A stretch of DNA of 31,348 nt from IMG/VR virus record IMGVR_UViG_3300037882_003902, positions 1 through 31,348 of that record; one strand, given 5' to 3'. The stretch is from a virus. A program made the translations under genes and the position numbers. Every line of letters begins with the position of its first letter. Position 1 is the first letter of the stretch. This document shows, in pieces, positions 16,483 to 28,154 of this stretch. The notes under the pieces were generated by a model. That model was not told the DNA's origin, made no database searches, and worked only from the letters and a program-made list of their open reading frames with translations.

Positions 16483-16489
16483 CCTAATT

Positions 16490-16527: not shown

Positions 16528-16538
16528 CTCATACTCTC

Positions 16539-16587
16539 ACTTCAGAGTAGGTCATCATTTTAAATCATCCTACTTCAGAGTAGGTCA
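16539..16587 (+). repeat. Two copies of a 16-bp direct repeat
   Basis: ACTTCAGAGTAGGTCA occurs at 16539-16554 and again at 16572-16587, starts 33 bp apart (about three helical turns). It lies between a terminator and the next gene, where operators or an activator site would be expected. Confidence 0.7.
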
Positions 16588-16606
16588 ATAATATTAAAAC
16601 ACCATT

Positions 16607-16714
16607 CTAGTTTCCAAAGGACTAGCATCGTAAGATGAGTGTTGATGGGTATGCTCTTATATAGTTTCTATGCTGAAGAAACTATCTAGCATTCTATCCT
16701 AGAACTGATAGAAT
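16607..16714 (+). other. Array of four hairpins in the leader of the next gene
   Basis: In order: CTAGT/ACTAG (16607-16625); CATC-GTAA-GATG (16626-16637), a GNRA tetraloop; ATAGTTTC/GAAACTAT (16661-16685); ATTCTATC/GATAGAAT (16691-16714). The last two stems are perfect 8-bp. The array ends 15 bp before the ATG at 16730. Confidence 0.6.
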
Positions 16715-16729
16715 AACCTTTAGATAATC

Positions 16730-17149: not shown

Positions 17150-17227
17150 GAACAATGTGAAACCCAAGCTCTCTATATGAGATCTGTTATAGCCAGACCA
17201 TACTTCACAAACAACAACCATCTAGTT

Positions 17228-17404
17228 ATGAAATACGGACTATTTTACGAAGGAAAACTACTGTCAGGGCAACATACCTACGACAGTATTAAAAATGCTA
17301 TCGAAGCGTCTATTCAAATTGTTGGGTACAAGCGTCGTGTACAAGGATATAGTCTTTATAGATTGCGAGTAAAACCCTTGAAACGTGTTGTTCTGCAAAA
17401 GTAA
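17228..17404 (+). CDS. Small hypothetical protein, 58 aa
   Basis: MKYGLFYEGKLLSGQHTYD then a basic C-terminal half (GYKRRVQGYSLYRLRVKPLKR). An ATG at 17177 would add 17 residues; 17228 fits better because the product begins with a beta strand and the MKYG style is seen elsewhere here. The stop overlaps the next ATG by one base (TAATG). Not recognised. Confidence 0.65.
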   Translation: MKYGLFYEGKLLSGQHTYDSIKNAIEASIQIVGYKRRVQGYSLYRLRVKPLKRVVLQK

Positions 17405-17634
17405 TGTCATATCCACTAACAGATAAGGATAAAGGAGTCTCCGTTAAGTACTCCTCATTCTTGTGGTTCTTTCCAGAAACACATTCTCAGTACGATTATT
17501 ATAAAGATCGTGGAACAGAATGTACATATGAAGAGCATAGAATACAAGTTAAACTGTTCAAAGAAGAACAGGAAAAGCTTGTAGACAAACGTTCTGATTA
17601 TGAAAGATTTTGGTTAGAACACAGGAAATCATAA
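17404..17634 (+). CDS. Hypothetical protein, 76 aa
   Basis: Not recognised. N-terminal MSYPLTDKDKGVSVKYSSFLWFFPETHSQYDYY, followed by a charged helix ending EHRKS. Translationally coupled to the preceding gene by a one-base overlap. Soluble and aromatic-rich. Confidence 0.7.
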   Translation: MSYPLTDKDKGVSVKYSSFLWFFPETHSQYDYYKDRGTECTYEEHRIQVKLFKEEQEKLVDKRSDYERFWLEHRKS

Positions 17635-17640
17635 CCCGCT

Positions 17641-17870
17641 CGTTAGGGCAACAGGTCCTAGAAACGCCTGTAATTAACTCAGCTAAGTAAAGGATAGGCT
17701 GAGTCTATGGACTCTCTCTACACCGTGTCCCATCACGGTAGATAAGCAACAGCTTATTAAGCTCTTTATGAGGAGTTAAAACGGAAAACCTTCATGTGAA
17801 GGAGAGTAGGTGTGAGCTATCACCCTAAGTCGAAAGACTCAAACCACTCATTATAGTGGAGTAAATAGCA
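17641..17870 (+). other. Non-coding array of about nine hairpins upstream of a tRNA-like gene
   Basis: No gene. Consecutive perfect or near-perfect stems: ACAGG/CCTGT (17651-17671), ACTCAGC/GCTGAGT (17677-17704), CCGTG/CACGG (17723-17738), AGCTT/AAGCT (17751-17763), CCTTC/GAAGG (17789-17802), GGTG/CACC (17809-17824), AGTC-GAAA-GACT (17828-17839, GNRA loop) and CCACT/AGTGG (17844-17859). This density over 230 bp, ending at the tRNA-like gene, suggests a folded transcript. It also holds CCCTAAGTCG (17823-17832), which recurs at 19981-19990. Confidence 0.55.
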
Positions 17871-17872
17871 TG

Positions 17873-17973
17873 GCCTCTTTAGCTCAATGGTAGAGCACCT
17901 GAATATGTTGTTAACGAGTCTTAGGATCTACACAGCATTAGAGGAGATACTGGTTCGAGTCCAGTAGGAGTCA
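17873..17973 (+). tRNA. Atypical tRNA-like gene, 101 nt, expanded anticodon domain
   Basis: Acceptor GCCTCTT pairs with AGGAGTC (one mismatch), followed by T-A, D arm GCTC/GAGC with loop AATGGTA, and T arm ACTGG-TTCGAGT-CCAGT with discriminator A. These parts are canonical. Between D and T arms there are 51 nt instead of 21-40. CCTGA/TTAGG can close an 18-nt loop, then ATCT/AGAT a second arm. No normal 7-nt anticodon loop can be assigned, so no isotype is given. It may be a tRNA with an insertion or a tRNA mimic. Confidence 0.6.
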
Positions 17974-17994
17974 CTCATTATTCAATCAAACAAT

Positions 17995-18255
17995 ATGAAA
18001 CTTAATCTAGCATTTCCTGTTTATAAAGAGCCTCTAATATTTGAAGAGGATGCAAATAAAGACATTTACTCAGGTCAGTATGATCTAGTGGATGCGAACA
18101 GCAATACTTTGTACACAAAAGGTGTTTCATCTGGGCCATACAGTATGGTCAGCGCGGCTTGTTCTGGGTACTATAAATCTTGGGAAGAACTTCCTAATGA
18201 TGTAAAAGAAGCTCTGGAAGAAGAATACGATGAGCATATTGCTTCAACTCTTTAA
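17995..18255 (+). CDS. Hypothetical acidic protein, 86 aa
   Basis: Not recognised. MKLNLAFPVYKEPLIFEED, then YDLVDANSNTLYTKGVSSGPYS (small beta fold) and an acidic helical end (LPNDVKEALEEEYDEH). Predicted cytoplasmic. Flanked by the tRNA-like gene and a three-way-junction RNA element. Confidence 0.7.
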   Translation: MKLNLAFPVYKEPLIFEEDANKDIYSGQYDLVDANSNTLYTKGVSSGPYSMVSAACSGYYKSWEELPNDVKEALEEEYDEHIASTL

Positions 18256-18266
18256 ATCATTTAATT

Positions 18267-18312
18267 CTCATGCTCGTAAGAGGTAAGGCAAGTAGTTAGC
18301 CACTACCATGAG
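18267..18312 (+). other. Three-way-junction RNA element
   Basis: P1 CTCATG/CATGAG (18267-18272 with 18307-18312); P2 CTC-GTAA-GAG (18273-18282, GNRA loop); P3 GTA-a-GGC ... GCC-ac-TAC (18283-18306). The three helices abut with no unpaired junction base. It starts 11 bp after a stop and ends 18 bp before the next ATG, so it could regulate translation or mRNA ends. Confidence 0.55.
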
Positions 18313-18330
18313 ATAAACTATTCCCGTATT

Positions 18331-18783
18331 ATGAAAAAGATTCTTTTTAATTCCGCACGTTTCATCATATTCCTCACATTGTGGGCAATATGGGCTTTAT
18401 GCGTAGTATTCGTTATATCTCTGGTAGAGCACACTACTATGGAGATGGCATGCGTTTACCCAAGTACATCATTATTAGCGTTTGCGCTAGGATGGATTGG
18501 ACCAATGTGTATCATTGTGGACTGGACAGAAAAGGAAGACCCAATTAGAGAAGTCACAGTTCAAGATCAGAAAGAACATCCTAATCTGCTTCATATAAGG
18601 TGGATGGGTGAAAACTTTCTCATAGAGTTTATAGGAAACAGGTTCATTTGTGTTCCTATCACAACAGAGTTTGCATTTAATACTACGGTACGATTCCTTG
18701 ATTACAGGGGAAATGGAGATGTAAAGTTCGATGAGCTTGTAATGAAATATAAAGATGAGGTAGAACACAAAATAGTAGAATAG
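18331..18783 (+). CDS. Membrane protein with cytosolic C-terminal domain, 150 aa
   Basis: Two membrane helices: about 9-32 (IIFLTLWAIWALCVVFVISLV) and about 47-66 (SLLAFALGWIGPMCIIV). A ~85-residue soluble C-terminal domain (from DWTEKEDPIREVTV) with beta/alpha composition follows. The positive N-terminus suggests both ends lie in the cytoplasm. No family recognised. Membrane-anchored early phage proteins are often superinfection-exclusion factors, but nothing here proves that. Confidence 0.72.
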   Translation: MKKILFNSARFIIFLTLWAIWALCVVFVISLVEHTTMEMACVYPSTSLLAFALGWIGPMCIIVDWTEKEDPIREVTVQDQKEHPNLLHIRWMGENFLIEFIGNRFICVPITTEFAFNTTVRFLDYRGNGDVKFDELVMKYKDEVEHKIVE

Positions 18784-18800
18784 ATTCATGCCTTTTTAAA

Positions 18801-18826
18801 GGTGAACGGACGTAAGTTAGTTCACC
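18801..18826 (+). repeat. GUAA-hairpin repeat, copy A
   Basis: Stem GGTGAAC/GTTCACC (7 bp), then G·A, then GAC-GTAA-GTT apex. It lies 17 nt after the stop at 18783 and is followed by TATTCT. The apex is shared with four other sites (22900, 24551, 25192, 25647). Confidence 0.85.
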
Positions 18827-18839
18827 TATTCTCTAATCA

Positions 18840-18921
18840 TTAAAGAAATATCCGTCCCCAGCTAACAAGGAAGTCGGCACCGTAATCACGGGCATTGTTA
18901 GTTTGGGGGCGCATTCTTTAA
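18840..18921 (+). other. Long interrupted hairpin RNA
   Basis: Nested pairing: TTAAAGAA/TTCTTTAA (18840-18847 with 18914-18921), CCCC/GGGG, CTAACAA/TTGTTAG, and inner CCGT-aatc-ACGG. Next come ACTCC/GGAGT (from 18921) and CTTGCAG/CTGCAAG, which overlap and so cannot form together. No gene in 18784-18993. A regulated leader or stable RNA is possible. Confidence 0.55.
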
Positions 18922-18993
18922 CTCCTTGCAGGGAGTATAAACCGTGTTAGGCTGCAAGCGTTGTCAATAGACAGGTCACAATTCAACTTTACT

Positions 18994-19176
18994 ATGAAAA
19001 AATACTTATCAACAAGTTCATTAGTAGGACTTGCAGGAATCATTATTCCATATGCAGTATTCATACATTATGGAGGACTGTTAACAGCAACCTTATCTTT
19101 AGTATTTGCAGTATTATCTGCTGTAATATTAGCTTTAATAGAATATTTAGTGCAAAAGTATTTATCGAATAAGTAA
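18994..19176 (+). CDS. Small two-helix membrane protein, 60 aa
   Basis: MKKYLSTSSLVGLAGIIIPYAVFIH forms helix one (about 8-25) and GLLTATLSLVFAVLSAVILALIEYLV helix two (about 28-52), with a basic tail (QKYLSNK). A TTG at 18961 is in frame, but the ATG at 18994 sits right after the repeated leader AATTCAACTTT and is preferred. Function unknown; a holin-like protein is possible, but it lies far from the endolysin. Confidence 0.72.
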   Translation: MKKYLSTSSLVGLAGIIIPYAVFIHYGGLLTATLSLVFAVLSAVILALIEYLVQKYLSNK

Positions 19177-19195
19177 AAATCAATTCAACTTTATC

Positions 19196-19501
19196 ATGAA
19201 CAAAATAGAAATTACTAAAACTAACTTAGAAAGTCGGTTTCAAGCCATTAGAACTGCATTTGCAACTGGTGATAGAGAATCAGTTTCTGATTATATTAGC
19301 GTAAATGCAATGTTTGATCCTGAAACGTATAAAGTTTACGAAAAATACAACAGCTTTGAAGAAGTGTTAAACGAAGTTAAAAAACTTGCTGTACATAATA
19401 AGTTGGAAGCAGTAAAGTTAATCAAACGAACTCAGTTACTAGGAGGACTCAAAGATTCAAAAGATTTTGTAGATTTCCAAATGCACGAATTACAAGAATA
19501 A
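19196..19501 (+). CDS. Protein with L7/L12 C-terminal-like motif, paralogue 1, 101 aa
   Basis: A helical N-terminal part (ESRFQAIRTAFATGDRESVSDYI) is followed by HNKLEAVKLIKRTQLLGGLKDSKDFVDF (about 72-94). The latter follows the ribosomal L7/L12 C-terminal signature K-x-x-x-I-K-x-x-R-x-x-x-x-x-GLKEAKDLVE. The whole protein aligns with the product at 20308-20595 (both have I-R-x-A-x-x-x-GD near the start). In ribosomes this domain recruits translation factors; a phage mimic contacting EF-Tu/EF-G or the stalk is a hypothesis. Confidence 0.72.
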   Translation: MNKIEITKTNLESRFQAIRTAFATGDRESVSDYISVNAMFDPETYKVYEKYNSFEEVLNEVKKLAVHNKLEAVKLIKRTQLLGGLKDSKDFVDFQMHELQE

Positions 19502-19527
19502 AAATCACAATTCAACTTTGTTAAATC

Positions 19528-19782
19528 ATGAGTAAGACATTTCAAGTACCAGCAATACCTCTTGTCATATATCTATTTATGACAATTCCACTCATTATAT
19601 GTGGTGCACGCACTGCTGTACTATTGTACTTTGGAGAAGAAATAATAGCAGAGGTTGTATTAGAATCACTTAAACTAAGTTATATGGTAACTGTACCATT
19701 AACTATCCTTGTAGCAGTAAATTTAATTGATCCAATAATTGCTCCAGGAACTCACAAGGATATTATTGACGTAGAAGAATAA
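19528..19782 (+). CDS. Membrane protein, 84 aa
   Basis: Two hydrophobic helices: about 10-33 (PLVIYLFMTIPLIICGARTAVLLYF) and about 48-67 (LSYMVTVPLTILVAVNLI), then an acidic tail (KDIIDVEE). Preceded by the third copy of the AATTCAACTTT leader, so probably expressed with the two genes before it. Function unknown. Confidence 0.72.
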   Translation: MSKTFQVPAIPLVIYLFMTIPLIICGARTAVLLYFGEEIIAEVVLESLKLSYMVTVPLTILVAVNLIDPIIAPGTHKDIIDVEE

Positions 19783-19783
19783 A

Positions 19784-19918
19784 ACCTAAGAAGTCGTCAG
19801 TGCGGAGACAATCCGTTATTGCATCAAGATAGCTTAGGTCACCTCACCCTGCCACTAGAAGAGAACCGAATGCTGGAGAAATCTGGTTAAGGGCGTGGTT
19901 GGGGTGAGTTTTAAGAAG
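19784..19918 (+). other. Two large hairpin domains (non-coding)
   Basis: ACCTAAG/CTTAGGT (19784-19790 with 19833-19839) encloses a GCGGA/TCCGT arm. Next, CTCACCC/GGGTGAG (19843-19849 with 19912-19918) encloses GCCAC/GTGGT and AACC/GGTT, followed by TTTTAAGAAGTTTTTTT. No coding frame. It may be a stable RNA ending in a terminator. Confidence 0.55.
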
Positions 19919-19942
19919 TTTTTTTCCAGACTGCCTTTTAAT

Positions 19943-19980
19943 GAGTAGCCCGACTGTAAAGTGGTGGCTACTCTCTTTTA
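19943..19980 (+). terminator. Intrinsic terminator-like hairpin
   Basis: GAGTAGCC (19943-19950) pairs perfectly with GGCTACTC (19966-19973) and TCTTTTA follows. Downstream to 20072 there are further small stems, including CTATC-GAAA-GATAG (20014-20027), and the repeat word CCCTAAGTCG. Confidence 0.7.
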
Positions 19981-20072
19981 CCCTAAGTCGTTAGATAAGG
20001 GATGCTCACAAGACTATCGAAAGATAGAGCAAGCCTAGCAGGGCAAGCAATTCTGCAATTAAATTAACTTCT

Positions 20073-20270
20073 ATGAGATATTTCTTAATTTTCTTTCGTG
20101 TTAACAGTAAGCACGGGGAAATGACTCTGTTTTCTGATAAGTATCCTAATAGGCAGGCTTTAGGGGAACGGATTGCTGCAAAATCAACACAGTGGGTTAC
20201 ACCTGTTGATGTTACTATCACAAATATTGTAGAAATCTCTAAAGAAGACTTTATGCAATATACATCTTAG
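20073..20270 (+). CDS. Hypothetical protein, 65 aa
   Basis: Not recognised. Starts MRYFLIFFRVNSKHGEMTLFSDKYPNR, a strand-turn-strand pattern, followed by LGERIAAKS and VTITNIVEISKEDFMQY. Such short beta-alpha-beta proteins recur in phage early regions. Its stop at 20270 is 37 bp before the next ATG used here. Confidence 0.7.
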   Translation: MRYFLIFFRVNSKHGEMTLFSDKYPNRQALGERIAAKSTQWVTPVDVTITNIVEISKEDFMQYTS

Positions 20271-20307
20271 TATGCTACTATTTTATCACTCTTTAAAATA
20301 CTTCGTC

Positions 20308-20595
20308 ATGGAAGACGTAAAAAAGAAATTCATTGAAATCCGAGACGCACTCGTAATGGGCGACAAGCCTTTAAAATATGTGATCTCGAACTACACTCCA
20401 GAGAAAGTAAGTTTAGCTTTGCAAGCATATCGTAAAACCCATTCATGGACAGCATATATACATTTTATGGAGGAGTGCGCAAATAATAATGAGAAGTTAT
20501 TAGCAATTGCACACACAACTAAGTTATGTATTACAGGAGGAATGAAAGAAGCAAAAGATTTTTTTGAAACATATTTCAACAACAAGCCCGCATAA
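20308..20595 (+). CDS. Protein with L7/L12 C-terminal-like motif, paralogue 2, 95 aa
   Basis: From MEDVKKKFIEIRDALVMGD it aligns end to end with the product at 19196. The C-terminal motif EKLLAIAHTTKLCITGGMKEAKDFFE (about 64-89) keeps GG-x-KEAKDF of the L7/L12 signature. An in-frame ATG at 20272 would add 12 residues, but 20308 matches the paralogue's start. The stop shares one base with the next start (TAATGG). Confidence 0.72.
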   Translation: MEDVKKKFIEIRDALVMGDKPLKYVISNYTPEKVSLALQAYRKTHSWTAYIHFMEECANNNEKLLAIAHTTKLCITGGMKEAKDFFETYFNNKPA

Positions 20596-21065
20596 TGGAA
20601 GAACTACTAGATAAAGTATTCGGAAATCCTAAATGGAATGTATGTTTTAACGATCTAGACGCTAATCAAGTGTTGAAACTTAAAAAGTTTCTAAGAAGAA
20701 AAAGCATACCTTCTAAGAGAGTAACTCAGCTAAAGGCCGGTTCAGTTTTATTGTGGAAAGCCATTAATTACGGAATGTATGATAAAACCAATTGGTTCGG
20801 TACTAGAAAAGATGTTACAGAAGAGTTCTTCAAAGAACTTGAAGAAAAACTACCAACTATATTTGTTGAAGGAAAACATGTTAAAGAATACGTTGTATCA
20901 ATACTATGGCAGCATAAAAATGATTTGACTGTCATTAGATTAACTGCTTCTCTAGTTAAAAATGCATCATCAGAACATGAAGCATTAGGCATAGCTATCA
21001 GTGAAAATGCAGAAACAGCAGGGAAATACGCAATGAACATGTATTTAGTTACTGAAGTAGAATGA
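20595..21065 (+). CDS. Hypothetical protein, 156 aa
   Basis: Not recognised. The N-terminal ~45 residues are basic (LKLKKFLRRKSIPSKR). The C-terminal ~55 residues (VIRLTASLVKNASSEHEALGIAISENAETAGKYAM) look like a compact alpha/beta domain. Overlaps its neighbours by one base upstream and by ATGA downstream, so it is coupled to both. Predicted soluble. Confidence 0.75.
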   Translation: MEELLDKVFGNPKWNVCFNDLDANQVLKLKKFLRRKSIPSKRVTQLKAGSVLLWKAINYGMYDKTNWFGTRKDVTEEFFKELEEKLPTIFVEGKHVKEYVVSILWQHKNDLTVIRLTASLVKNASSEHEALGIAISENAETAGKYAMNMYLVTEVE

Positions 21066-21226
21066 GTACGTATAAGAAACAGAGTAGCCACGAATCTACA
21101 TGGTACAACTCTATACGGACTTCTACAGTATCATGGCGTAAGAAGTCAAGTTACAAGAAAAAGTTAAAGAGAGAAATCTCTAAGAAGATCAGACGTGAAG
21201 GTAAAAAAGAATTAAAAGAATACTAA
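21062..21226 (+). CDS. Very basic small protein, 54 aa
   Basis: MSTYKKQSSHESTWYNSIRTSTVSW and then a Lys/Arg helix (KKKLKREISKKIRREGKKELKEY). The ATG overlaps the stop of the preceding gene (ATGA), a strong coupling signal. About one third of residues are K or R, so nucleic-acid binding is likely; a partner for the structured RNAs around it is only a guess. Not recognised. Confidence 0.65.
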   Translation: MSTYKKQSSHESTWYNSIRTSTVSWRKKSSYKKKLKREISKKIRREGKKELKEY

Positions 21227-21284
21227 GAATAATTTTCATGAGATAGAACCTAATCGTTACAAAAGAGTAGTGGTTAGGTTTAAT

Positions 21285-21356
21285 GCCTTCGTAGCTCAGC
21301 GGAAGAGCAACTGCCTTCTAAGCGGTAGGTCACAAGTTCGAATCTTGTCGGGGGTA
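21285..21356 (+). tRNA. tRNA-Arg (anticodon UCU)
   Basis: All four arms pair: GCCTTCG/CGGGGGT (with G·U pairs), GCTC/GAGC, ACTGC-CTTCTAA-GCGGT, and ACAAG-TTCGAAT-CTTGT. The anticodon is TCT, reading AGA/AGG. The discriminator A at 21356 is followed by an encoded CCA (21357-21359). A terminator follows 25 bp later. Confidence 0.93.
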
Positions 21357-21383
21357 CCAGCTTCATATAGGAATAGTTTAATT

Positions 21384-21416
21384 AGATGATTAGTTATTAC
21401 AACTAATCATCTTTTA
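21384..21416 (+). terminator. Intrinsic terminator after tRNA-Arg
   Basis: An 11-bp perfect stem (AGATGATTAGT 21384-21394 with 21402-21412), 7-nt loop TATTACA, then TTTATCTTG. Confidence 0.8.
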
Positions 21417-21447
21417 TCTTGTCATTCATATTTAAAACATATACGTT

Positions 21448-22170
21448 ATGAAAGTTTCAAACGAGTTAAAAACAAAAATAGCAACATCCATTTCTACTGG
21501 CAATACAGTAGAAGGATTTGATCTGCTAATCCAATTAGGATTCAGAGATGCAATATTGCTAAAAGCAAATTATTTGGCAGCTAAAAAAGAGTACAATGGC
21601 GGAAGAGCTAGTTTTGATGAATATTCCCGCAAAGTCGCAATGACTCATCAAGGAATGCTAGCATTGTGCAACGCAGAAGCAGCTCCAGATATGGATGCAG
21701 TAGTTGTGTACAAAAATGCTGAGAAAGCCAAGCCCCAGAAGAAAGAGGATATCCTGCGTAATGGTGCTCTCCACAATCCAGCATTTATGTTGGCTCATTA
21801 CGGTAAGGCGCTAAGATTGACGCATGCTGATCTGGCAGTTAAGCTTCATGAAAAGTACATGGAACTTATGGAAGAAAGTGCCCAAGTAGCATTCGGCTTC
21901 AAAGTGCCAACTGAGCCTGTACTGGATGAAGAACTGCTTGAACTTGTTAAAACGGCTGACGATGAACTTCGTGCATTGAAAAATGACTGGAAAGAAAACG
22001 TAAGGCAGCTAGTTTCTACTAAGTCTTTCCCATCTCCTGCAAACATTGCCAAAGCGTTGGAAACTTGCCAAGCCAATGGGCTGTTGACTGACTTGAAATT
22101 CCATGTTGAATTGTCTGGATGGGCAATTCAAGCCCAAATCTTACAACAGATCACAACAGCAATCCAGTAA
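21448..22170 (+). CDS. EAD11-like domain protein, 240 aa
   Basis: Residues ~6-76 (KTKIATSISTGNTVEGFDLL, then AILLKANYLAAKKEYNGG, then ASFDEYSRKVAMTHQGMLALCN) follow the Effector-Associated Domain 11 layout: I-x-x-G-x-x-x-A-x-x-L-L, a helix with L-x-x-x-Y/W-x-x-L-x-x-E-x-x-x-G, then S-x-x-E-x-x-R-x-x-x-R-x-x-x-x-L-L. EAD11 is a small adaptor in bacterial NTPase-based conflict systems, where it joins sensor and effector proteins by homotypic contact. The remaining ~160 residues are helical and unrecognised (HADLAVKLHEKYMELMEES). No effector domain is visible, so a decoy or inhibitor role is possible. Confidence 0.68.
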   Translation: MKVSNELKTKIATSISTGNTVEGFDLLIQLGFRDAILLKANYLAAKKEYNGGRASFDEYSRKVAMTHQGMLALCNAEAAPDMDAVVVYKNAEKAKPQKKEDILRNGALHNPAFMLAHYGKALRLTHADLAVKLHEKYMELMEESAQVAFGFKVPTEPVLDEELLELVKTADDELRALKNDWKENVRQLVSTKSFPSPANIAKALETCQANGLLTDLKFHVELSGWAIQAQILQQITTAIQ

Positions 22171-22174
22171 AGCT

Positions 22175-22306
22175 ATGAGATTTATATTAGACGAATCTAC
22201 AGGAAAAATCATCGACCTGTGGGCTTCTTCAGCAGAATCAGAAGAAGAGCAAGATGATACTACCAATAAAACAAAGAAAGACGATGATAACACTGTACAG
22301 GGATAA
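22175..22306 (+). CDS. Small acidic protein, 43 aa
   Basis: MRFILDESTGKIIDLWASS then a very acidic tail (AESEEEQDDTTNKTKKDDD). It begins 4 bp after the EAD11-like gene, so it is probably co-expressed with it. The acidic tail could mimic nucleic acid or act as an interaction tail. A longer frame from 22103 runs inside the previous gene and is less likely. Confidence 0.6.
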   Translation: MRFILDESTGKIIDLWASSAESEEEQDDTTNKTKKDDDNTVQG

Positions 22307-22640
22307 ATGTCACTTAATTGTAGTAACCGAAAAGAATGGATTGTACATAATCTGGGTAAGAGTTGGTAATCCTGTGTCTCGCAATAAAAAGTTTGCAAGC
22401 TGGGAAATCGCAATTAAGTTTGCAAAAACTCCATTCGGATTATATGAAGACGCTTACAAAGGCAGCTTGATGAAAGTTACAAAAGGTAAAGTATTCAAAT
22501 CTGTAAAAAGTCTTGTGAAGACACACAGAGAAATTGAAAAAATATCTTTGCCGATGCCTGATTTGTCTGAAGTAAGTGACTACATCAAAGACATTTTAGC
22601 ACGAACAAACCTCATTACGGAGGGTGCAAAACATACGTAA
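22284..22640 (+). CDS. Hypothetical protein, 118 aa
   Basis: Not recognised. MITLYRDKCHLIVVTEKNGLYIIWVRVGNPVSRNKKFASWEIAIKFAKT is a beta sheet followed by a helix. A C-terminal helical part ends VSDYIKDILARTNLITEGAKHT. I chose the ATG at 22284, overlapping the previous gene by 23 bp; an ATG at 22254 would add ten polar residues. Confidence 0.7.
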   Translation: MITLYRDKCHLIVVTEKNGLYIIWVRVGNPVSRNKKFASWEIAIKFAKTPFGLYEDAYKGSLMKVTKGKVFKSVKSLVKTHREIEKISLPMPDLSEVSDYIKDILARTNLITEGAKHT

Positions 22641-22665
22641 TAACCAGCTCATAATGAGTAAATCT

Positions 22666-22748
22666 AATCTATGAAAATGTCCAGCTCATAGATTTTAAAA
22701 GGACAGAGGAAAAGTGATATAGTAACTTCGGTGAACAAGCTTTTCCTC
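22666..22748 (+). other. Two 9-bp hairpins just before tRNA-Met
   Basis: AATCTATGA/TCATAGATT (22666-22674 with 22686-22694) and GAGGAAAAG/CTTTTCCTC (22706-22714 with 22740-22748), both perfect. The second ends 6 bp before the tRNA, suggesting a processing or leader structure. Confidence 0.6.
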
Positions 22749-22754
22749 AAACAC

Positions 22755-22828
22755 GGACTATTAGCTCAGCGGTTAGTAGCAGCGCTCTCATAAAGCGAAG
22801 GTCGGGGGTTCAAATCCCTCATGGTCCA
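22755..22828 (+). tRNA. tRNA with CAU anticodon (Met or Ile2)
   Basis: Acceptor GGACTAT/ATGGTCC, D stem GCT/AGC with one further mismatch, anticodon arm GCGCT-CTCATAA-AGCGA (top pair mismatched), T arm GGGGG-TTCAAAT-CCCTC, discriminator A. The anticodon CAT could be elongator Met or, if lysidine-modified, Ile for AUA; the sequence alone does not decide. Confidence 0.85.
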
Positions 22829-22899
22829 CTGTAGTTTTTAGTTACCCTTGCAAAAGAGCAAGGCTCTGACGATTCATTTTGAATAAAGTGTTAATAAGC

Positions 22900-22925
22900 A
22901 TTTCTACAGACGTAAGTTAGGAGAT
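22900..22925 (+). repeat. GUAA-hairpin repeat, copy B
   Basis: Stem ATTTCT/GGAGAT (with G·U pairs), bulged AC, then A-GAC-GTAA-GTT-A apex. It is followed by TTTTAATTG and lies 32 bp before the next ATG. This is the weakest stem of the five, but the apex is identical. Confidence 0.7.
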
Positions 22926-22957
22926 TTTTAATTGTCATTAATTAACTGCACTATAAG

Positions 22958-23221
22958 ATGAGGAAACAGCGTAGTAAATGGACGTTGAGCAAAGTTGCTC
23001 CGTTCAAATCAAAGTACCAACACCTAAAAGCTTCCTTAAAGGCTTTTCAGGCTGGGCTAGCCAATCATAATTCTGCTAAACCCAAGGAGGAAGCAGAAGA
23101 AATGGAAAAGATCAAATGGTTAGGAGTCTTCAATGATTTCCATGCCAGTATTGATAAGGCTCAGATTGCACTCACTACCTTCTTAAACTCTCTCAAATTC
23201 CCTGTCTCTAAATTAGATTAG
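22958..23221 (+). CDS. Hypothetical protein, basic N-terminus and helical C-terminus, 87 aa
   Basis: MRKQRSKWTLSKVAPFKSKYQHLKASLKAF is basic. It is followed by an acidic linker (PKEEAEEMEK) and a helix (FNDFHASIDKAQIALTTFLNSL). Not recognised; possibly nucleic-acid binding with a helical dimer segment. It ends 26 bp before an intrinsic terminator, so it is the last gene of its transcript. Confidence 0.7.
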   Translation: MRKQRSKWTLSKVAPFKSKYQHLKASLKAFQAGLANHNSAKPKEEAEEMEKIKWLGVFNDFHASIDKAQIALTTFLNSLKFPVSKLD

Positions 23222-23247
23222 GAATAATGAGATGTGTTTAGAAGGAT

Positions 23248-23278
23248 CTAGCTCTGCCGTAAGGTGGGGCTAGTTTTT
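23248..23278 (+). terminator. Intrinsic terminator with GUAA tetraloop
   Basis: An 11-bp stem with G·U pairs (CTAGCTCTGCC 23248-23258, GGTGGGGCTAG 23263-23273), GTAA loop, then TTTTT. It shares the GUAA loop with the repeat family but not the GAC/GTT closing pairs. Confidence 0.85.
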
Positions 23279-23305
23279 ATGTCATTCTTAAATCACATAC
23301 ATACA

Positions 23306-23722
23306 ATGAAAAAAATTATTTTCACTGTAGCATTAGCCATAGCATTTGTGCTAATCTACGCAGTAGGGGTCGTTGGTATTAAAATGTACTTCGGCCAAAA
23401 AGAATTACCACAAATTTCAATCACAAACGATGAAACTCCTCTGGTCTACGATCAGGGAGTTATTGAGGCTTCTGGGTATTGCAAATTGAAAAATCAGGTT
23501 ATTCCAATCAAATCTGCAGACATCTTCTTAAATGAAGAATTTGTACAGATTGTGATGGATCCTGAGGATCCAGATATGCAACCGCTCATGTTTACGACCC
23601 AAAGTTCAAAATGGGCCAGTAATATCTTTAGAGACTCGTTTACCACTGTGGTCGTCACAGACAAGACGGTGGTACTGAAATCTGAACTAAACGAGGGAAC
23701 GTTAATCTCTTTAAAACGATAA
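23306..23722 (+). CDS. Membrane-anchored protein, 138 aa
   Basis: One N-terminal membrane helix (about 3-25: KIIFTVALAIAFVLIYAVGVVGI) followed by a ~110-residue beta-rich domain (YCKLKNQVIPIKSADIFLNEEFVQIVMDP, SFTTVVVTDKTVVLKSE). I use the ATG at 23306; an upstream in-frame ATG at 23264 lies inside the terminator. The domain may face the periplasm. Family unknown. Confidence 0.72.
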   Translation: MKKIIFTVALAIAFVLIYAVGVVGIKMYFGQKELPQISITNDETPLVYDQGVIEASGYCKLKNQVIPIKSADIFLNEEFVQIVMDPEDPDMQPLMFTTQSSKWASNIFRDSFTTVVVTDKTVVLKSELNEGTLISLKR

Positions 23723-23724
23723 CT

Positions 23725-23994
23725 ATGGCACTATACGTTAGATTCCGCAAAATAGGACCGGTTGAAGTAACTTCTTTATCTATTAAAAACGATGAAGGCT
23801 ATCAGCCCGTAAAAAAGGTAATCATACTTAGCGACTTAAAAACCATTCTGCTAAACCTAGAAGAAGGTAATCGTTGGGTAGAAGTAGATTGTGATTCAGA
23901 TAGTATCGAGGCTCTCAAAAATAGCAAAGTCCTGTCAGGAGTAAACGCGCTCCAAGAAGTACCTCTACACGAGGGTGTTACCAACGATCAGTAA
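23725..23994 (+). CDS. Hypothetical protein, 89 aa
   Basis: Not recognised. MALYVRFRKIGPVEVTSLSIKNDEG and KKVIILSDLKTILLNLEEG suggest a small beta/alpha fold; acidic overall. It begins 2 bp after the stop of the membrane-anchored gene, so the two form a pair. Confidence 0.72.
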   Translation: MALYVRFRKIGPVEVTSLSIKNDEGYQPVKKVIILSDLKTILLNLEEGNRWVEVDCDSDSIEALKNSKVLSGVNALQEVPLHEGVTNDQ

Positions 23995-24017
23995 GGTAAC
24001 AATTGACGTCAATCCCT

Positions 24018-24102
24018 GAATCCCAGTAGTATCCGCCCTGACCGCATACACGCTTGGCTCTCTATCCATTGAATAGACGCCGTAATAAGCATACTGGGAT
24101 TC
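24018..24102 (+). other. Closed multi-branch RNA element
   Basis: A perfect 11-bp stem (GAATCCCAGTA 24018-24028 with 24092-24102) closes about 63 nt. These hold GTAT/ATAC around a C-rich loop and GGC-tc-TCTAT / ATAGA-c-GCC. TTCCTTTTC follows. It resembles a three-way junction ending in a terminator-like U-rich run, between two genes. Confidence 0.6.
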
Positions 24103-24131
24103 TTCCTTTTCAAAATATAACAGTATATAAA

Positions 24132-24434
24132 ATGTTAAAAGCTATCAGTACAGCAATACACTACTGGCCATATTTTATCGGTGGCGGAGTAGTAGTTTAT
24201 CTATTCACAATCTCAAAAGCTTACCTCAAAGCAGGATTAGATCCTATTCTCAAAATTGAAGAGAGTGGAGTTTATAAAAGCCAAAATGAAGCTTGGGTCA
24301 AAACGAACGAGATCATTAACAATGATTATATGCTTCGTGATGACTGTAAAAGCGAAAAAGACGAAAACGGATTTGATATTACATTAGGGTACGGTACAAA
24401 GGAATACCGCTTTATATCTGATAAAGAAGAATAA
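24132..24434 (+). CDS. Single-pass membrane protein, 100 aa
   Basis: MLKAISTAIHYWPYFIGGGVVVYLFTIS gives one membrane helix (about 12-29), followed by a charged soluble domain (NEIINNDYMLRDDCKSEKDENGFDITLGYGTKEYRF). An in-frame ATG at 24054 lies inside the structured RNA and is unlikely. Not recognised. Confidence 0.68.
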   Translation: MLKAISTAIHYWPYFIGGGVVVYLFTISKAYLKAGLDPILKIEESGVYKSQNEAWVKTNEIINNDYMLRDDCKSEKDENGFDITLGYGTKEYRFISDKEE

Positions 24435-24462
24435 ATTTGGCTACATAAAGTGAGTTGGTTTT

Positions 24463-24520
24463 GAACTGTGCGTAGGAATACGTGCAGTTCTACCTCTGCT
24501 CGACTTGCCTTGGGCAGAGG
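24463..24520 (+). other. Two strong hairpins in tandem
   Basis: GAACTG-t-GCGTA-ggaa-TACGT-g-CAGTTC (24463-24490) and CCTCTGC/GCAGAGG (24493-24499 with 24514-24520). They precede the GUAA repeat copy C in the same non-coding gap (24435-24609). Confidence 0.6.
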
Positions 24521-24550
24521 ATCTTGTCATTATCAAGCATTAGTTAGGTT

Positions 24551-24578
24551 AGGAGATCAGACGTAAGTTGGATCTTCT
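24551..24578 (+). repeat. GUAA-hairpin repeat, copy C
   Basis: Stem AGGAGATC/GATCTTCT (8 bp, one G·U), A·G, then the GAC-GTAA-GTT apex, running into TTT. It ends 31 bp before the next ATG. Confidence 0.82.
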
Positions 24579-24609
24579 TTTAAAATGTCACCAAACTTTT
24601 AATATAGAT

Positions 24610-25167
24610 ATGATGAATGATGCATCAGTTTTTCCGTTAAACAAAGTAGAAATGGAACGTATCCGTAAACACTACGTGTCATTGAACCTTGGAATGTCCT
24701 TCGAGAAATCGAATTGGCAAATTATTGACAACAGGATAGCATGTAAATGTTATTTTGTTGACAGGGTTTCAACAGTGTTCGCAATTTTGCTTCATCTTGA
24801 TCCTGACCGTTATCGAAACGAATTAGGAGAGGAAGTTGCAAATGATTACTACTACCAGATCAAAAAAGTACAGTTGAGAAGACTGGAAGATCAGATGGAA
24901 GTACTTCGTGGCGAAATTGCGAACTTGGAAGATTCAATGCCAGATCGAGTACATCTTATGGAGCATAAAAAAATCCATATTAAAGTAATTGGATTATCTT
25001 ATTGTAGTAAGCATATGGCACTTACAGAACTGTATAAGATTTTACATCCTAAATTGGGACTTGAAGAAACCTTCAATGAAGGAGTAAAAAGGCTAGGGTA
25101 CACTCATTTTACATGGGATACCAAGAATGACAGTAGAAAGTTTGGAATTGGCGACTTTCCTGAATAA
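24610..25167 (+). CDS. Hypothetical protein with central coiled coil, 185 aa
   Basis: Not recognised. The N-terminal ~75 residues form a mixed fold (NWQIIDNRIACKCYFVDRVSTVFAILLHLDPD). A coiled coil follows (VQLRRLEDQMEVLRGEIANLEDSM, about 86-110), then a C-terminal domain ending KFGIGDFPE. I use ATG 24610 (MMNDASVF; 24613 equally possible). A TTG at 24568 lies inside the GUAA hairpin and is rejected. Confidence 0.72.
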   Translation: MMNDASVFPLNKVEMERIRKHYVSLNLGMSFEKSNWQIIDNRIACKCYFVDRVSTVFAILLHLDPDRYRNELGEEVANDYYYQIKKVQLRRLEDQMEVLRGEIANLEDSMPDRVHLMEHKKIHIKVIGLSYCSKHMALTELYKILHPKLGLEETFNEGVKRLGYTHFTWDTKNDSRKFGIGDFPE

Positions 25168-25191
25168 AAAACACGATCAAGGTTAATGCTT

Positions 25192-25215
25192 GTGAGCAGA
25201 CGTAAGTTAGCTCAC
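25192..25215 (+). repeat. GUAA-hairpin repeat, copy D
   Basis: Stem GTGAGC/GCTCAC (6 bp), A·A, then GAC-GTAA-GTT, followed by TTTTT. It lies 24 bp after a stop and 16 bp before the 69-nt tRNA-like gene. By form it could terminate transcription. Confidence 0.85.
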
Positions 25216-25231
25216 TTTTTACAAAATACAA

Positions 25232-25300
25232 GCCCATATCGTCCAACGGTAGGACAGTGCTATGAGTGTTAGAATTCGGGTTCGATTCCCGATGTGGGCA
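25232..25300 (+). tRNA. Short tRNA-like gene, 69 nt, irregular anticodon arm
   Basis: Acceptor GCCCATA/TGTGGGC, D arm GTCC-AACGGTA-GGAC, T arm TCGGG-TTCGATT-CCCGA and discriminator A are all canonical. Only 19 nt separate D and T arms where at least 21 are needed. CTA/TAG (25260-25262 with 25270-25272) can close a 7-nt loop TGAGTGT, but there is no U33 and the stem is poor. No anticodon can be assigned. Either degenerate or deliberately modified. Confidence 0.65.
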
Positions 25301-25329
25301 CCCTCTATAACAATTTAAATATTATAACT

Positions 25330-25590
25330 ATGAAGTATGGACTTATACTTTTGCTTCTATTACTGGCATACGCTGAGGTGTATGGCCAGAACACACAAGA
25401 AACGGAACTTACTGAAATAGAGTACAAGGGTGAAGACCTATTGGCTCTGAAAGTAACGTACAAAGAAAGAAACGGTGAGTTTTATCAATATTACGATCCG
25501 TCATCTCTTGCTCTTATTGCCTATAACATGTGGGATGAGTGGTACTTTGTTGTACCAAATATCCGCAGTTGCGTAAGCTGCAGAAAGTAA
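25330..25590 (+). CDS. Small secreted protein, 86 aa
   Basis: Signal peptide MKYGLILLLLLLAYAEVYG, with likely cleavage before Q20. The mature ~67 residues are acidic, then aromatic (YQYYDPSSLALIAYNMWDEWYFVV), and end with two Cys (SCVSCRK). The in-frame ATG at 25294 lies inside the tRNA-like gene and is rejected. Family unknown; periplasmic action is expected. Confidence 0.72.
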   Translation: MKYGLILLLLLLAYAEVYGQNTQETELTEIEYKGEDLLALKVTYKERNGEFYQYYDPSSLALIAYNMWDEWYFVVPNIRSCVSCRK

Positions 25591-25596
25591 GAAAAA

Positions 25597-25628
25597 CATG
25601 CACCTGTAGTAGTTTACGAAGGTACATG
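25597..25628 (+). other. Hairpin downstream of the secreted-protein gene
   Basis: CATGCACC (25597-25604) with GGTACATG (25621-25628), one mismatch, then CCTGTTTTGT. It could be a weak terminator. Confidence 0.5.
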
Positions 25629-25646
25629 CCTGTTTTGTAGGAACTT

Positions 25647-25676
25647 GAGGTATTCGGACGTAAGTTAGAATACCTC
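25647..25676 (+). repeat. GUAA-hairpin repeat, copy E
   Basis: The longest stem of the family, GAGGTATTC/GAATACCTC (9 bp perfect), G·A, GAC-GTAA-GTT apex, followed by TATTT. It lies 38 bp before the ATG at 25715. Confidence 0.87.
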
Positions 25677-25714
25677 TATTTAGCTCACAATTGACTCTAG
25701 TTGAATTATATATT

Positions 25715-25951
25715 ATGAACAATATCAATACTCCACCTAAGAAAAAAAGTGCCGTTAAAGTACATATCTGTTCGTCAAGACTAGACATGTATAATAAGAT
25801 GGCTAAAGAATTAGATATAATCATAGACTGGGGTCAAACTTACGGCGTCGGTTTCTTTTATATTACAAAATCAGATTACGGGAACCGAACTGAAGTCTCT
25901 CCAAAAGAGGAGGGGCTTCAGCCTTTTAAAAACACTTTAAAAACAAAGTAA
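25715..25951 (+). CDS. Hypothetical protein, 78 aa
   Basis: MNNINTPPKKKSAVKVHICSSRLDMYNKMAKELDIIIDWG: basic start, then a small alpha/beta fold. It continues YGVGFFYITKSDYG and ends with a Lys-rich tail. The ATG at 25715 is preferred over 25691, which sits closer to the hairpin and adds only eight residues. Not recognised. Confidence 0.66.
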   Translation: MNNINTPPKKKSAVKVHICSSRLDMYNKMAKELDIIIDWGQTYGVGFFYITKSDYGNRTEVSPKEEGLQPFKNTLKTK

Positions 25952-25955
25952 TTTT

Positions 25956-26300
25956 ATGAAAAAGATTCTACTTTTTATTATGTTGCTTATCTCAGCAACA
26001 ACATTTGCTCAAACCATTGAAGTCTCCATGCAAGAGTCTATCGAGGGAAAAACTCGAAATGGAGAAAAGCTGGTCTATAATCCTGAGACAGGGATTCTTA
26101 CTGCAACAACAAATTCCGATACAATGGAAATCGTTGTACACAGGGTACAGTTGTTGTATGAACGTAAAAAGCTGTCCTACGAGTTTTACGGGATGCAAAA
26201 TGGTAATGCCTATCTGGTAGCAACCATTTCTCCAATAACTAGGCTGTTTCCTAAGTTCTCAGTGATTAAGAATGACTGGCTATGGAAAATCTGGGGCTAG
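25956..26300 (+). CDS. Secreted protein, 114 aa
   Basis: Signal peptide MKKILLFIMLLISATTFAQ with the A-x-A-like site before Q19 or T20, typical of Bacteroidota exports. The mature ~95 residues are beta-rich (KLVYNPETGILTATTNSDTMEIVVHRVQLLYERKKLSYEFYG). It starts the run of envelope-related genes before the endolysin and overlaps the next gene by 19 bp. Family unknown. Confidence 0.75.
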   Translation: MKKILLFIMLLISATTFAQTIEVSMQESIEGKTRNGEKLVYNPETGILTATTNSDTMEIVVHRVQLLYERKKLSYEFYGMQNGNAYLVATISPITRLFPKFSVIKNDWLWKIWG

Positions 26301-26539
26301 CAACCTTAGGGTTATGTATCGGCATATTTCTAGCATACGTATTTAATATCCAATTTTATCATGAGCGCAAGCAGCGTAAAAGAGATAGGCTATTAAAGGA
26401 GTTACTAGTAACAGAAATACGGTTAAAAACTCCTAAATACATGGAGTTGGACCAAAAGAAAATATACGCGAAAAATATTATTGCCATTCTAGTTGGCTTT
26501 ATATTAATTTTATTTACCATCATAATATGGCATTACTAG
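26282..26539 (+). CDS. Two-helix membrane protein, 85 aa (lysis region)
   Basis: Helix one about 4-23 (LGLATLGLCIGIFLAYVFNI), a basic/charged loop (HERKQRKRDRLLKELLVTEI), helix two about 65-84 (IIAILVGFILILFTIIIW). With the charged loop inside the cell, both ends face the periplasm. The position two genes before the endolysin makes a holin or antiholin role possible. It is coupled to the upstream secreted-protein gene by overlap. Confidence 0.68.
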   Translation: MENLGLATLGLCIGIFLAYVFNIQFYHERKQRKRDRLLKELLVTEIRLKTPKYMELDQKKIYAKNIIAILVGFILILFTIIIWHY

Positions 26540-26566
26540 AATGCATTTAAACACTTTTTAAAAAGT

Positions 26567-27034
26567 ATGAAAAACTTTATTATCTTGTTTGCGCTGATGC
26601 TCCTCGGAGCCTGTGCGCGTAATGCCCCAACCAATGTCGGAACAGAATATCAAAACTTGTCAGACGTTATGGTTATTTTTGAAACAAACACAGTGTTGGC
26701 GTTTGAAATCAAAGAGGTTCAGCCTGATTCAGTTAAGAACTTGTTCTATTCTGATAGCTGTAGCCTTTCAAAAGAAACCGTGCCGTACATTGAAGTTGGT
26801 GAAGGCATTTCTTCAAGAAACGTAACTACCAATGCAAAGTATTGCAAAGAGCTAAGCTGCATTACCGGATACGTCACACTTGTTTACGACAACGGGTTGA
26901 TTTATTTACCTGTCCTTTTAACCAATAAAAACTCTAAGAAGCATGAAACAGGCTTTTTTAAAAAAGTTCGCATCTCTTCAGACCCTAGGTACCAAGGTAT
27001 CTGGTGCCTTGTCCAAGTTCAGGAAGTGGACTAA
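26567..27034 (+). CDS. Lipoprotein, 155 aa (lysis region)
   Basis: Lipobox LLGAC at 12-16 after a short hydrophobic n/h region (MKNFIILFALM), so Cys16 should be lipidated. The mature part is beta-rich and contains several Cys (near 65, 92 and 96). A small membrane-protein gene begins 92 bp before its end in another frame. A lipoprotein overlapping a single-pass protein next to an endolysin recalls spanin pairs, but here the lipoprotein is large and comes first. Outer-membrane role likely; spanin identity is a guess. Confidence 0.75.
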   Translation: MKNFIILFALMLLGACARNAPTNVGTEYQNLSDVMVIFETNTVLAFEIKEVQPDSVKNLFYSDSCSLSKETVPYIEVGEGISSRNVTTNAKYCKELSCITGYVTLVYDNGLIYLPVLLTNKNSKKHETGFFKKVRISSDPRYQGIWCLVQVQEVD

Positions 27035-27164
27035 CCTTCCAAGATTCAGTTCTGTCGAAGGAATCGTAATCCTTGTTATAGTACTATCCACTATTGCCGG
27101 ACTTGATATGTGCCATAAAAAGCCTACGCCAAGACGCGACATCAGGATCCAGCAGCCGTTCTAA
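26943..27164 (+). CDS. Single-pass membrane protein, 73 aa, overlapping the lipoprotein gene
   Basis: A basic N-terminal region (MKQAFLKKFASLQTLGTKVSGALSKFRKW), one membrane helix about 38-55 (VEGIVILVIVLSTIAGL), then a short basic tail (CHKKPTPRRDIRIQQPF). The first 92 bp overlap the lipoprotein gene out of frame. Candidate inner-membrane partner of that lipoprotein or a holin regulator. Not recognised. Confidence 0.6.
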   Translation: MKQAFLKKFASLQTLGTKVSGALSKFRKWTNLPRFSSVEGIVILVIVLSTIAGLDMCHKKPTPRRDIRIQQPF

Positions 27165-27209
27165 AATAAAACCTCCCATCATTTTTAATTTCTAACCCAT
27201 ATATGCAAT

Positions 27210-28127
27210 ATGCAAAAGGAAGAAGTAAAACTAATCTCAATTCCAGTTAAAGTTGCTAATGAGCCTTTCTGGAAGAACACTCAAGAACTGATGTTCAACT
27301 GGCTGAACAAAGCTGGCAATATCAAGTTCATCGCACTATTACTGGCCATTCTGGCTGTATTAGTTGCAATTTTCACACTCATTCCTGAATCCGGCTTCAA
27401 GGTCGAGATCTGGGTGGGAAAGCATGGCGCTGAGATCACTCCAGAATCACAAGTAGCATCAGTACCAGTAGCGCAAGTACCAGAAGAAAAAGAGGACTGG
27501 GAAAAACCTCTTCAAGTAACGTATATCCCACCTGCTAAGTCTGGTGTAGCGCCATCAGTAAAAGTAGCACACAAAACGTATGAGACTGCTATAGATTCAT
27601 CGTGGAGTTATTGCATGTGGTACTTGAAGGCTCGTGAGGGCTTCATGAAGGAAACTTATGTCTGTCCAGCAGGTAAGAAGACAAAAGGCTATGGACATAA
27701 TATTGATGCGCATAAAGACATCGACGAAGAAGGTGTGATAACATATAAGGAAGCCTCTAATTTGCTTAAAGAAGACTTTATAAAGCAATACGAAGTGATT
27801 CGTGCAGAGTTTCCAAATATGGCTCCGTACAAGTTAAGGGCCGTAACCTGTTTAGCAATGAACACAGGACTGGCCAAAATTAAGTATGTACGAGGCAAAT
27901 CAAAAAAGGGATTGTCAGACTTTTGGAAGAAACTGAAGTCTGGGCAAGTGCCTAACTTTGAAACGTATTGTAAATATAGAACTCCCGAAGGCAAAGTGAT
28001 GAAATCCAAACACCTCATTAATGCTAGAAGGTTTGAACGAATTATGTTTGAACAAGGGCCAGATGCTGTAAAAAGCATAGCCCACCAATACAGACAAGTG
28101 GTAGTTAATATCCACATGAAGAAGTAA
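27210..28127 (+). CDS. Membrane-anchored GH24 lysozyme (endolysin)
   Basis: Cleaves the peptidoglycan glycan strand. 305 residues: cytoplasmic stretch 1-37, membrane helix about 38-58 (IKFIALLLAILAVLVAIFTLI), Pro/Val-rich linker to ~125, then a T4-type lysozyme domain. The triad is E143 (AREGF), C152 and T158, spaced exactly as T4 E11-D20-T26 with Cys in place of Asp, as in P1 Lyz-type enzymes; GYGHN follows at 160-164. The N-terminal anchor suggests export without a holin pore or a signal-arrest-release mechanism, but the long cytosolic N-terminus is unusual for that. Holin-like genes flank it. Confidence 0.88.
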   Translation: MQKEEVKLISIPVKVANEPFWKNTQELMFNWLNKAGNIKFIALLLAILAVLVAIFTLIPESGFKVEIWVGKHGAEITPESQVASVPVAQVPEEKEDWEKPLQVTYIPPAKSGVAPSVKVAHKTYETAIDSSWSYCMWYLKAREGFMKETYVCPAGKKTKGYGHNIDAHKDIDEEGVITYKEASNLLKEDFIKQYEVIRAEFPNMAPYKLRAVTCLAMNTGLAKIKYVRGKSKKGLSDFWKKLKSGQVPNFETYCKYRTPEGKVMKSKHLINARRFERIMFEQGPDAVKSIAHQYRQVVVNIHMKK

Positions 28128-28154
28128 GCTTTTGAGATTTAATCCTTTTTAATA

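Follow-up and report, generated by a model that had tools for sequence, protein, structure and literature searches.

Five intergenic hairpins with one conserved GUAA-capped tip and mostly differing stems in a fragment of a crAss-like phage genome

Why would a phage keep a single hairpin tip at five places between its genes while most of the stems beneath it differ? The question is raised by IMG/VR record IMGVR_UViG_3300037882_003902, whose full 31,348 bases form the window analyzed here. Five intergenic hairpins on its + strand share a core of 14 nucleotides (nt), C-R-GAC-GUAA-GUU-R-G (R, purine), found in 5/5. In each of them, the tip consists of a GNRA-type GUAA loop on three pairs (C-G next to the loop, and one of the others a G.U), a purine-purine mismatch, and then a further C-G pair. 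An initial annotation of this DNA had described a 12-nt apex at these places; all five occurrences were found there, on the + strand only, and a search of the whole record gave no match on the - strand and none with a reversed control. The proposed fold of GUAA loop, three pairs, and purine mismatch stands, but its extent has to be corrected from 12 to 14 nt, as the C-G pair under the mismatch is present in 5/5. The copies are listed below with their folding energies, the number of shuffles that fold as well, and bit scores (44-48) that come from a covariance model built on these same copies. Open reading frames are abbreviated ORF and transfer RNAs tRNA.

18800..18827, + strand: hairpin 1, 8-bp (base pair) stem, G.A mismatch, GAC-GUAA-GUU cap; -13.7 kcal/mol, 0/200 shuffles; 47.8 bits; the stop of ORF 18331-18783 is 16 nt before and a Pistol ribozyme match 93 nt after.
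22900..22925, + strand: hairpin 2, weak stem, A.A mismatch, same GAC-GUAA-GUU cap; -4.1 kcal/mol, 12/200 shuffles; 43.6 bits; tRNA-Met (22755-22829) is 70 nt before and ORF 22958 is 32 nt after.
24551..24578, + strand: hairpin 3, 8-bp stem with one G.U, A.G mismatch, GAC-GUAA-GUU cap; -11.9 kcal/mol, 0/200 shuffles; 44.8 bits; a structured stretch lies before it and the ATG at 24610 is 31 nt after.
25192..25215, + strand: hairpin 4, 6-bp stem, A.A mismatch, GAC-GUAA-GUU cap, then TTTTTACA; -11.4 kcal/mol, 0/200 shuffles; 47.2 bits; the stop of ORF 24610-25167 is 24 nt before and tRNA-His (25232) is 16 nt after.
25647..25676, + strand: hairpin 5, 9-bp stem, G.A mismatch, GAC-GUAA-GUU cap; -14.7 kcal/mol, 0/200 shuffles; 46.4 bits; the ATG at 25715 is 38 nt after.

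As first described, all five copies lie in gaps between genes, outside the called ORFs, and in 4/5 the next start codon or tRNA follows at a distance of 16 to 38 nt. In a mechanical ORF list, ORF 24610 also has a TTG start at 24568, which falls within copy 3, and copy 5 is overlapped by ORF 25501-25824 on the opposite strand.

Chance was rejected as the origin of this family on the basis of core matches in shuffles, slid-pair controls, and a de novo scan with Markov shuffles. When the window was dinucleotide-shuffled 200 times, the 14-mer core turned up once on the two strands together. Standard pairs occupy 90.9% of the cells, compared with 31-38% when the partners are slid, and 30/35 cells are paired in the seven lower pair columns (binomial 5.7e-9). 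The stem of copy 2 is imperfect and weak, with either a 2-nt bulge or an A.G mismatch. Scanning the window de novo for repeated 8-10-mers with differing flanking stems returned the GUAA-core family alone, the - strand matches being its complement, and the same scan returned nothing on 5 Markov shuffles. Two other measures are less telling: the 11 near-copies with at most 2 mismatches, which include the five, are no excess over the shuffle mean of 7.9, and the four pair columns that vary on both sides are not distinctive alone, the same count being reached in 9/500 shuffles and in one of six slides (-2). The pattern itself is certain. Selection on RNA structure, which the initial annotation had claimed, is supported, with folding energies that favor the + strand.

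These energies also bear on the molecule that carries the structure. Folded as RNA, the + strand is the more stable in 5/5, with +/- values in kcal/mol of -13.7/-11.1 (copy 1), -4.1/-0.9 (copy 2), -11.9/-5.8 (copy 3), -11.4/-11.0 (copy 4), and -14.7/-13.8 (copy 5), one cause being that the invariant G.U of the tip and the stem G.U of copy 3 turn into A.C on the - strand. Folded as DNA, the + strand has the advantage in copies 1, 3, and 5, and the two strands tie in copies 2 and 4. Neither DNA strand of copies 2 and 3 folds well, and the - strand retains a fold in copies 1, 4, and 5. Taken with moderate weight, these comparisons indicate that the hairpins act as RNA, or as the non-template DNA strand.

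The genomic setting was derived from protein similarity and gene order. The left half of the record runs leftward and codes for a portal, a large terminase, and a GroEL with 28%, 33%, and 36% identity, respectively, to those of Cellulophaga phage phi14:2; ThyX, deaminase, and GroES are putative names given from translations. In phi14:2, portal, terminase, and GroEL are also encoded leftward with small genes between them, followed by a divergent block made up of small rightward genes. Because of these similarities and this layout, which matches that of phi14:2, the 31-kb record is assigned to a crAss-like phage, of which it is a fragment; the phage is related to gut crAss phages, in line with what had been guessed at the outset. 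The rightward half, from 15,964 onward, would by synteny be the place of the early genes, and all five hairpins fall within it. Five close relatives were found in IMG/VR (portal and terminase 72-85%), and their known pieces span the left half only. No IMG/VR relative was found for 4/4 right-half proteins tried and no phage match for 5/6 tried, while the phage matches of the right-half lysozyme were distant Microviridae only. A PHROGs search with ten proteins gave one weak match (E 0.0068), and a terminase search of GTDB contigs found none. The Pfam scan took in 30/34 right-half ORFs, and most of these proteins match nothing. In the divergent gap, 15278-15963, two host-type promoter-like sites (TTG-N18-23-TAnnTTTG) lie on the - strand at 15313 and 15693, directed toward the leftward genes; this motif has ten matches in the whole record and none on the + strand between right-half genes.

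What, then, do the hairpins do? Like intrinsic terminators, they are intergenic and have T-rich sequence behind their stem; a stop codon precedes copy 1 by 16 nt and copy 4 by 24 nt, and the stem-loop RNA is stable in 4/5 (0/200 shuffles, with 12/200 for copy 2). In the 8 nt after the stems, copies 1 to 5 have 4, 6, 4, 5, and 4 T. When five intergenic positions were drawn at random 100,000 times, 66 draws reached this sum of 23/40, the intergenic mean being ~2.5 of 8. The U-rich runs reported behind the stems are real as an enrichment of the set, though modest, and a run of at least 4 T right after the stem is present in copies 2 and 4 only. The five sites look like transcript-end hairpins. 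However, they differ from ordinary intrinsic terminators by their fixed 14-nt core, their conserved purine mismatch, and T tracts that are weak in 3/5.

We tentatively favor the reading that these are terminator-like boundary hairpins whose fixed tip is read by a trans-acting factor. The five sites would be RNA hairpins at transcript boundaries of the rightward half, where stem and T-rich tail would make or protect the 3' end that separates a gene or tRNA from the unit behind it, in the manner of an intrinsic terminator. The sequence of the stem would be free and that of the tip fixed by recognition. A single trans-acting reader, most probably a protein of the phage or a component of the polymerase that transcribes the region, would decide jointly for all five sites whether the RNA ends or goes on. 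What the sequence shows is where the hairpins lie, their strand, their pairing, the identity of the core, and the T-rich tail; RNA ending or trimming at these sites, and a factor that recognizes the tip, are inferences. The purine-purine mismatch and the G.U cost stability and would weaken a terminator, yet they are kept in 5/5 while the stem is free, which suggests the anatomy of a recognition site. The claim that conservation goes beyond the needs of a terminator is borne out by these same features.

Several observations weigh against this reading. Hairpin 2 barely folds, its -4.1 kcal/mol being better than 188 of 200 shuffles, and the tails of copies 1, 3, and 5 have only 4 T in 8. None of the five hairpins was listed by a terminator scan, because the mismatch pushes the unpaired part past the loop limit of the scan. 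The z-scores make the - strand the more unusual one in copy 4 (-/+, -4.66/-4.16) and copy 5 (-6.34/-5.23). The two mismatch positions can be A or G and are not fixed. The lower stems had been called unrelated, and most do differ, but those of copies 1 and 4 resemble each other (83% across 29 nt that include the core), and some copies may therefore share recent descent. Finally, no tip-binding protein was identified, and the family is known from one record only.

The wider use of GUAA tips in the same intergenic space counts in favor of the factor-read boundary hairpins. Among the tetraloops with at least 3 pairs that lie between right-half genes on the + strand, GUAA is the most frequent (9/219); the shuffle mean is 1.05, and 0/1000 shuffles reach 9 and 15/1000 reach 4, the count remaining without the five. 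The hexamer CGTAAG has 8/14 of its + strand copies in right-half intergenic space and 0/4 of its - strand copies there. As four GUAA tips remain after removal of the five, the phage seems to favor such tips more widely, the five sharing a longer core. For the check on further copies that the initial annotation had proposed, the outcome is mixed: the record holds no more exact copies, but it does hold four more GUAA-capped hairpins in the same half:

23248..23273, + strand: related hairpin that resembles an intrinsic terminator, with an 11-bp stem paired throughout, the same C-GUAA-G tip, and TTTTTATG behind it; 32 nt before ORF 23306.
19943..19973, + strand: possible looser relative, GUAA, 3 other pairs, G.G mismatch, C-G, bulged stem, then UCUUUU.
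18273..18282, + strand: further GUAA tip, CUC-GUAA-GAG, G on both flanks, without an adjoining lower stem.
16626..16637, + strand: a last GUAA tip, CAUC-GUAA-GAUG, which falls within the gap 16483-16729.

Compared with the core, hairpin 23248-23273 has C-G instead of A-U as the middle pair of its tip (a compensated change), a U.G pair in place of the mismatch, and a TTTTT tail. It scores 22.7 bits (E 4e-4), no higher than the reverse complement of copy 1 in the same search (23.2 bits), so that only its tip speaks for kinship. The 19943-19973 hairpin scores 12.2 bits (E 0.73), which is not significant alone; the z-score of 19936-19978 is -5.5.

Searches beyond the record were made for the core, for the covariance model, and for other hairpin families. 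At the gathering score, Rfam 15 returned only tRNAs and Pistol, and the five sites had nothing up to E 10 in 15200-28500, in agreement with the statement that no named family has this signature. Exact IMG/VR queries, which left out the copy 3 version (G after GUU), matched 50 stretches with CAGACGTAAGTTAG and 49 with CGGACGTAAGTTAG. When the six pairs below the C-G were examined at these 99 sites, 0/99 had all six and 3 had five (2.8 expected), the longest run being five pairs at one site, and a whole-record search of 50 of the 99 records found exactly one core copy in each. A 16-mer, the core lengthened by another G-C pair, had 8 matches in GTDB contigs, with at most 3 further pairs and that at one site. 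These core matches elsewhere look like chance, and within such limited searches no copy with both full core and full stem was found outside the record.

The covariance model found nothing at E 0.001 in phi14:2 and cr116_1, the best of 11 sources being E 0.27; among 24 records of terminase relatives, 4 had a match up to E 10, the best of them (0.01) inside a terminase gene. Among 395 Bacteroidota genomes, scored on 17 first-look candidates per genome with strict filters and without a shuffled control, 13 places in 12 genomes reached E 0.001, with a best score of 34 bits versus the 44-48 of the five. Of ten alignments made from 12 of these 13 places, 8 show terminator-like hairpins with a GNRA loop and 0 show the 14-nt core; one site (L155) has the 10-nt core with an A-U pair instead of the mismatch. 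The de novo family scan found no core of at least 8 nt in phi14:2, cr116_1, and FPSV-D24, and in 160 loci (1.65 Mb) plus six environmental records it found only the GAAA-type tip of Flavobacterium phage FpV4-1.1 (L117), where the 8-nt tip TAGAAATA caps three hairpins whose stems differ and of which two clearly resemble terminators. Some families appear at 5-7 nt, with FpV4-1.1 somewhat above its shuffles; those of two loci (L029 and L060) are probably tRNA T-arms and that of a third (L130) is probably chance. In phi14:2, hairpins also stand ahead of several start codons (4602, 9636, and 20971, by eye), with no common tip. Among the papers listed by a literature search, whose coverage of subscription papers was small, none describes a GUAA-core hairpin family in its title or the start of its abstract.

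The five could instead be ordinary intrinsic terminators of a phage that happens to favor GUAA tips, with a core that reflects stability or descent and is not read. The terminator-like Bacteroidota matches with their GNRA loops (8 of 10 alignments), the 10-nt core at L155, the three FpV4-1.1 hairpins on one tip, and the like stems of copies 1 and 4 are all points in favor of ordinary, unread terminators. Stability, however, cannot account for a mismatch, a G.U, and an exact GUAA kept in 5/5, and copying by descent would have brought the stems along, most of which differ; we consider this explanation unlikely. Repeated stable tetraloop tips between genes are known from T4, whose intercistronic C(UUCG)G hairpins have a core of ~6 nt. 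The family described here differs from them by a 14-nt core in which destabilizing features are kept.

The surroundings of the hairpins suggest another role, in which an endoribonuclease of phage or host, or an end-binding protein, would read the tip and cut or shield a polycistronic RNA, freeing tRNA and mRNA pieces. Copies 2 and 4 flank tRNAs (22755-22829 before copy 2 and 25232 after copy 4) and a Pistol match follows copy 1, which makes RNA cutting plausible in this region, and the 31-38 nt to the next ATG after copies 2, 3, and 5 would give short leaders of similar length. On the other hand, T-rich tails suit release more than cutting. Pfam recognized no ribonuclease in the right-half ORFs scanned, a weak argument, as most of them match nothing. 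Processing or protection of this kind is, in our view, somewhat unlikely.

If a factor does read the tip, it could also act by processive antitermination or pausing, with a small basic phage peptide or a NusG-like protein loading on the tip and modifying the polymerase, as in boxB/nut-like or LoaP/UpxY-like systems. According to PMC12550061, GNRA-like tips are read by phage N peptides. The boxB sites read by those of lambda, P22, and phi21 resemble the present hairpins in their short stem, GNRA-type tip, and phage operon context. Here, however, the loop is a true tetraloop, the mismatch lies three pairs below, five sites occur in one block, and no peptide is known. LoaP, as described in PMC12691694, reads a UNCG hairpin ahead of terminators; the dfn hairpin of this NusG-paralogue antitermination system is likewise a conserved tetraloop hairpin near terminators, but the loop here is GUAA in 5/5 rather than UNCG, hairpin and T-rich tail form one element, and Pfam recognized no NusG-like protein or NusG paralogue in the scanned ORFs. 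A Lys/Arg-rich ORF of 54 amino acids at 21062-21226 could encode an RNA-binding peptide, although it has no Pfam match. Lambda-type operons have one nut site each, as opposed to five sites in 6.9 kb here, and antitermination or pausing appears improbable. An RNA partner for the tip was also sought and rejected: no complement of the full 12-nt apex, with 0 or 1 mismatch, occurs in the record.

In 4/5 copies a gene or tRNA follows at short distance, and TTG-N18-23-TAnnTTTG is absent from the + strand between right-half genes; both observations would also fit hairpins that work as promoters. The crAss-like phages carry a virion polymerase, and the hairpins could form in DNA and serve this packaged enzyme as the early promoters of N4 do. 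The anatomy is of the same kind, with a constant tip and stem bases that just need to pair, in a phage group that has a virion polymerase. According to PMC4496689, the conserved bases of the N4 promoters are needed and the others just keep the hairpin; phi14:2 early genes are transcribed by its virion polymerase, according to PMC10136315, and a published figure legend describes a GNRA-like fold for the GTAA tetraloop in DNA. However, the N4 hairpin is on the template strand, which would be the - strand here, and the - strand folds worse as DNA (copies 1, 3, and 5) or equally well (2 and 4). Copies 2 and 3 fold poorly as DNA whichever strand is taken, the loop has 4 nt, the hairpin contains the mismatch, and phi14:2 has no such family in the de novo scan. 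In addition, the P23-45 polymerases, which share the two-barrel architecture, rely on motifs rich in AT or in GC, as reported in PMC10770324. N4-like DNA-hairpin promoters are thus disfavored, and we regard them as highly improbable.

Other features of the right half were recorded. The Pistol self-cleaving ribozyme match after hairpin 1 covers 18921-18980, just upstream of an ORF, and scores 36.0 bits against an Rfam gathering score of 34.5. A tRNA-like sequence at 17873-17973 (Rfam, 45.6 bits), not called by ARAGORN, has ~30 extra bases in the anticodon region and is possibly an intron-bearing or decayed tRNA. Strong intergenic folds are predicted at 17635-17872, 18845-18912, and 24435-24547 (z -4.7, -3.5, and -3.5); they have no Rfam match and are possible structured RNAs of unknown type. 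CCTAAG followed by TCG or AAGTCG occurs in three structured gaps (17824, 19785, and 19982), an element that we take to resemble half of a GNRA receptor. Two adjacent 33-nt stretches at 16522-16587 have ACTTCAGAGTAGGTCA in common, and each can form a small hairpin. At its N-terminus, the ORF at 21448-22170 matches effector-associated domain 11, though below threshold (E 8.4e-5; 22.9 bits, with a cut-off of 26). A TGTCAYTC-like motif lies 24-28 nt before the start codons at 17995, 20308, 21448, 22958, 23306, and 24610, four times right after a hairpin and T run. Considered as a promoter motif, it scored above 10 shuffles, but with the same procedure the phi14:2 sequences, too, came out above their 8 shuffles at this width, and the shuffles had fewer seeds, so that we did not rely on it.

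We know of no comparable cis-acting code for this polymerase family. From a biological perspective, one can picture early transcript ends marked by hairpins whose common tip a single factor of the phage, or its virion RNA polymerase, would recognize: terminators with a barcode that would be switched as a set in the passage from early to later expression; as a full account this is distinctly unlikely. With its free stem and fixed tip in the early half of the genome, the family offers a test object for telling apart a terminator code, a processing site, and a promoter.

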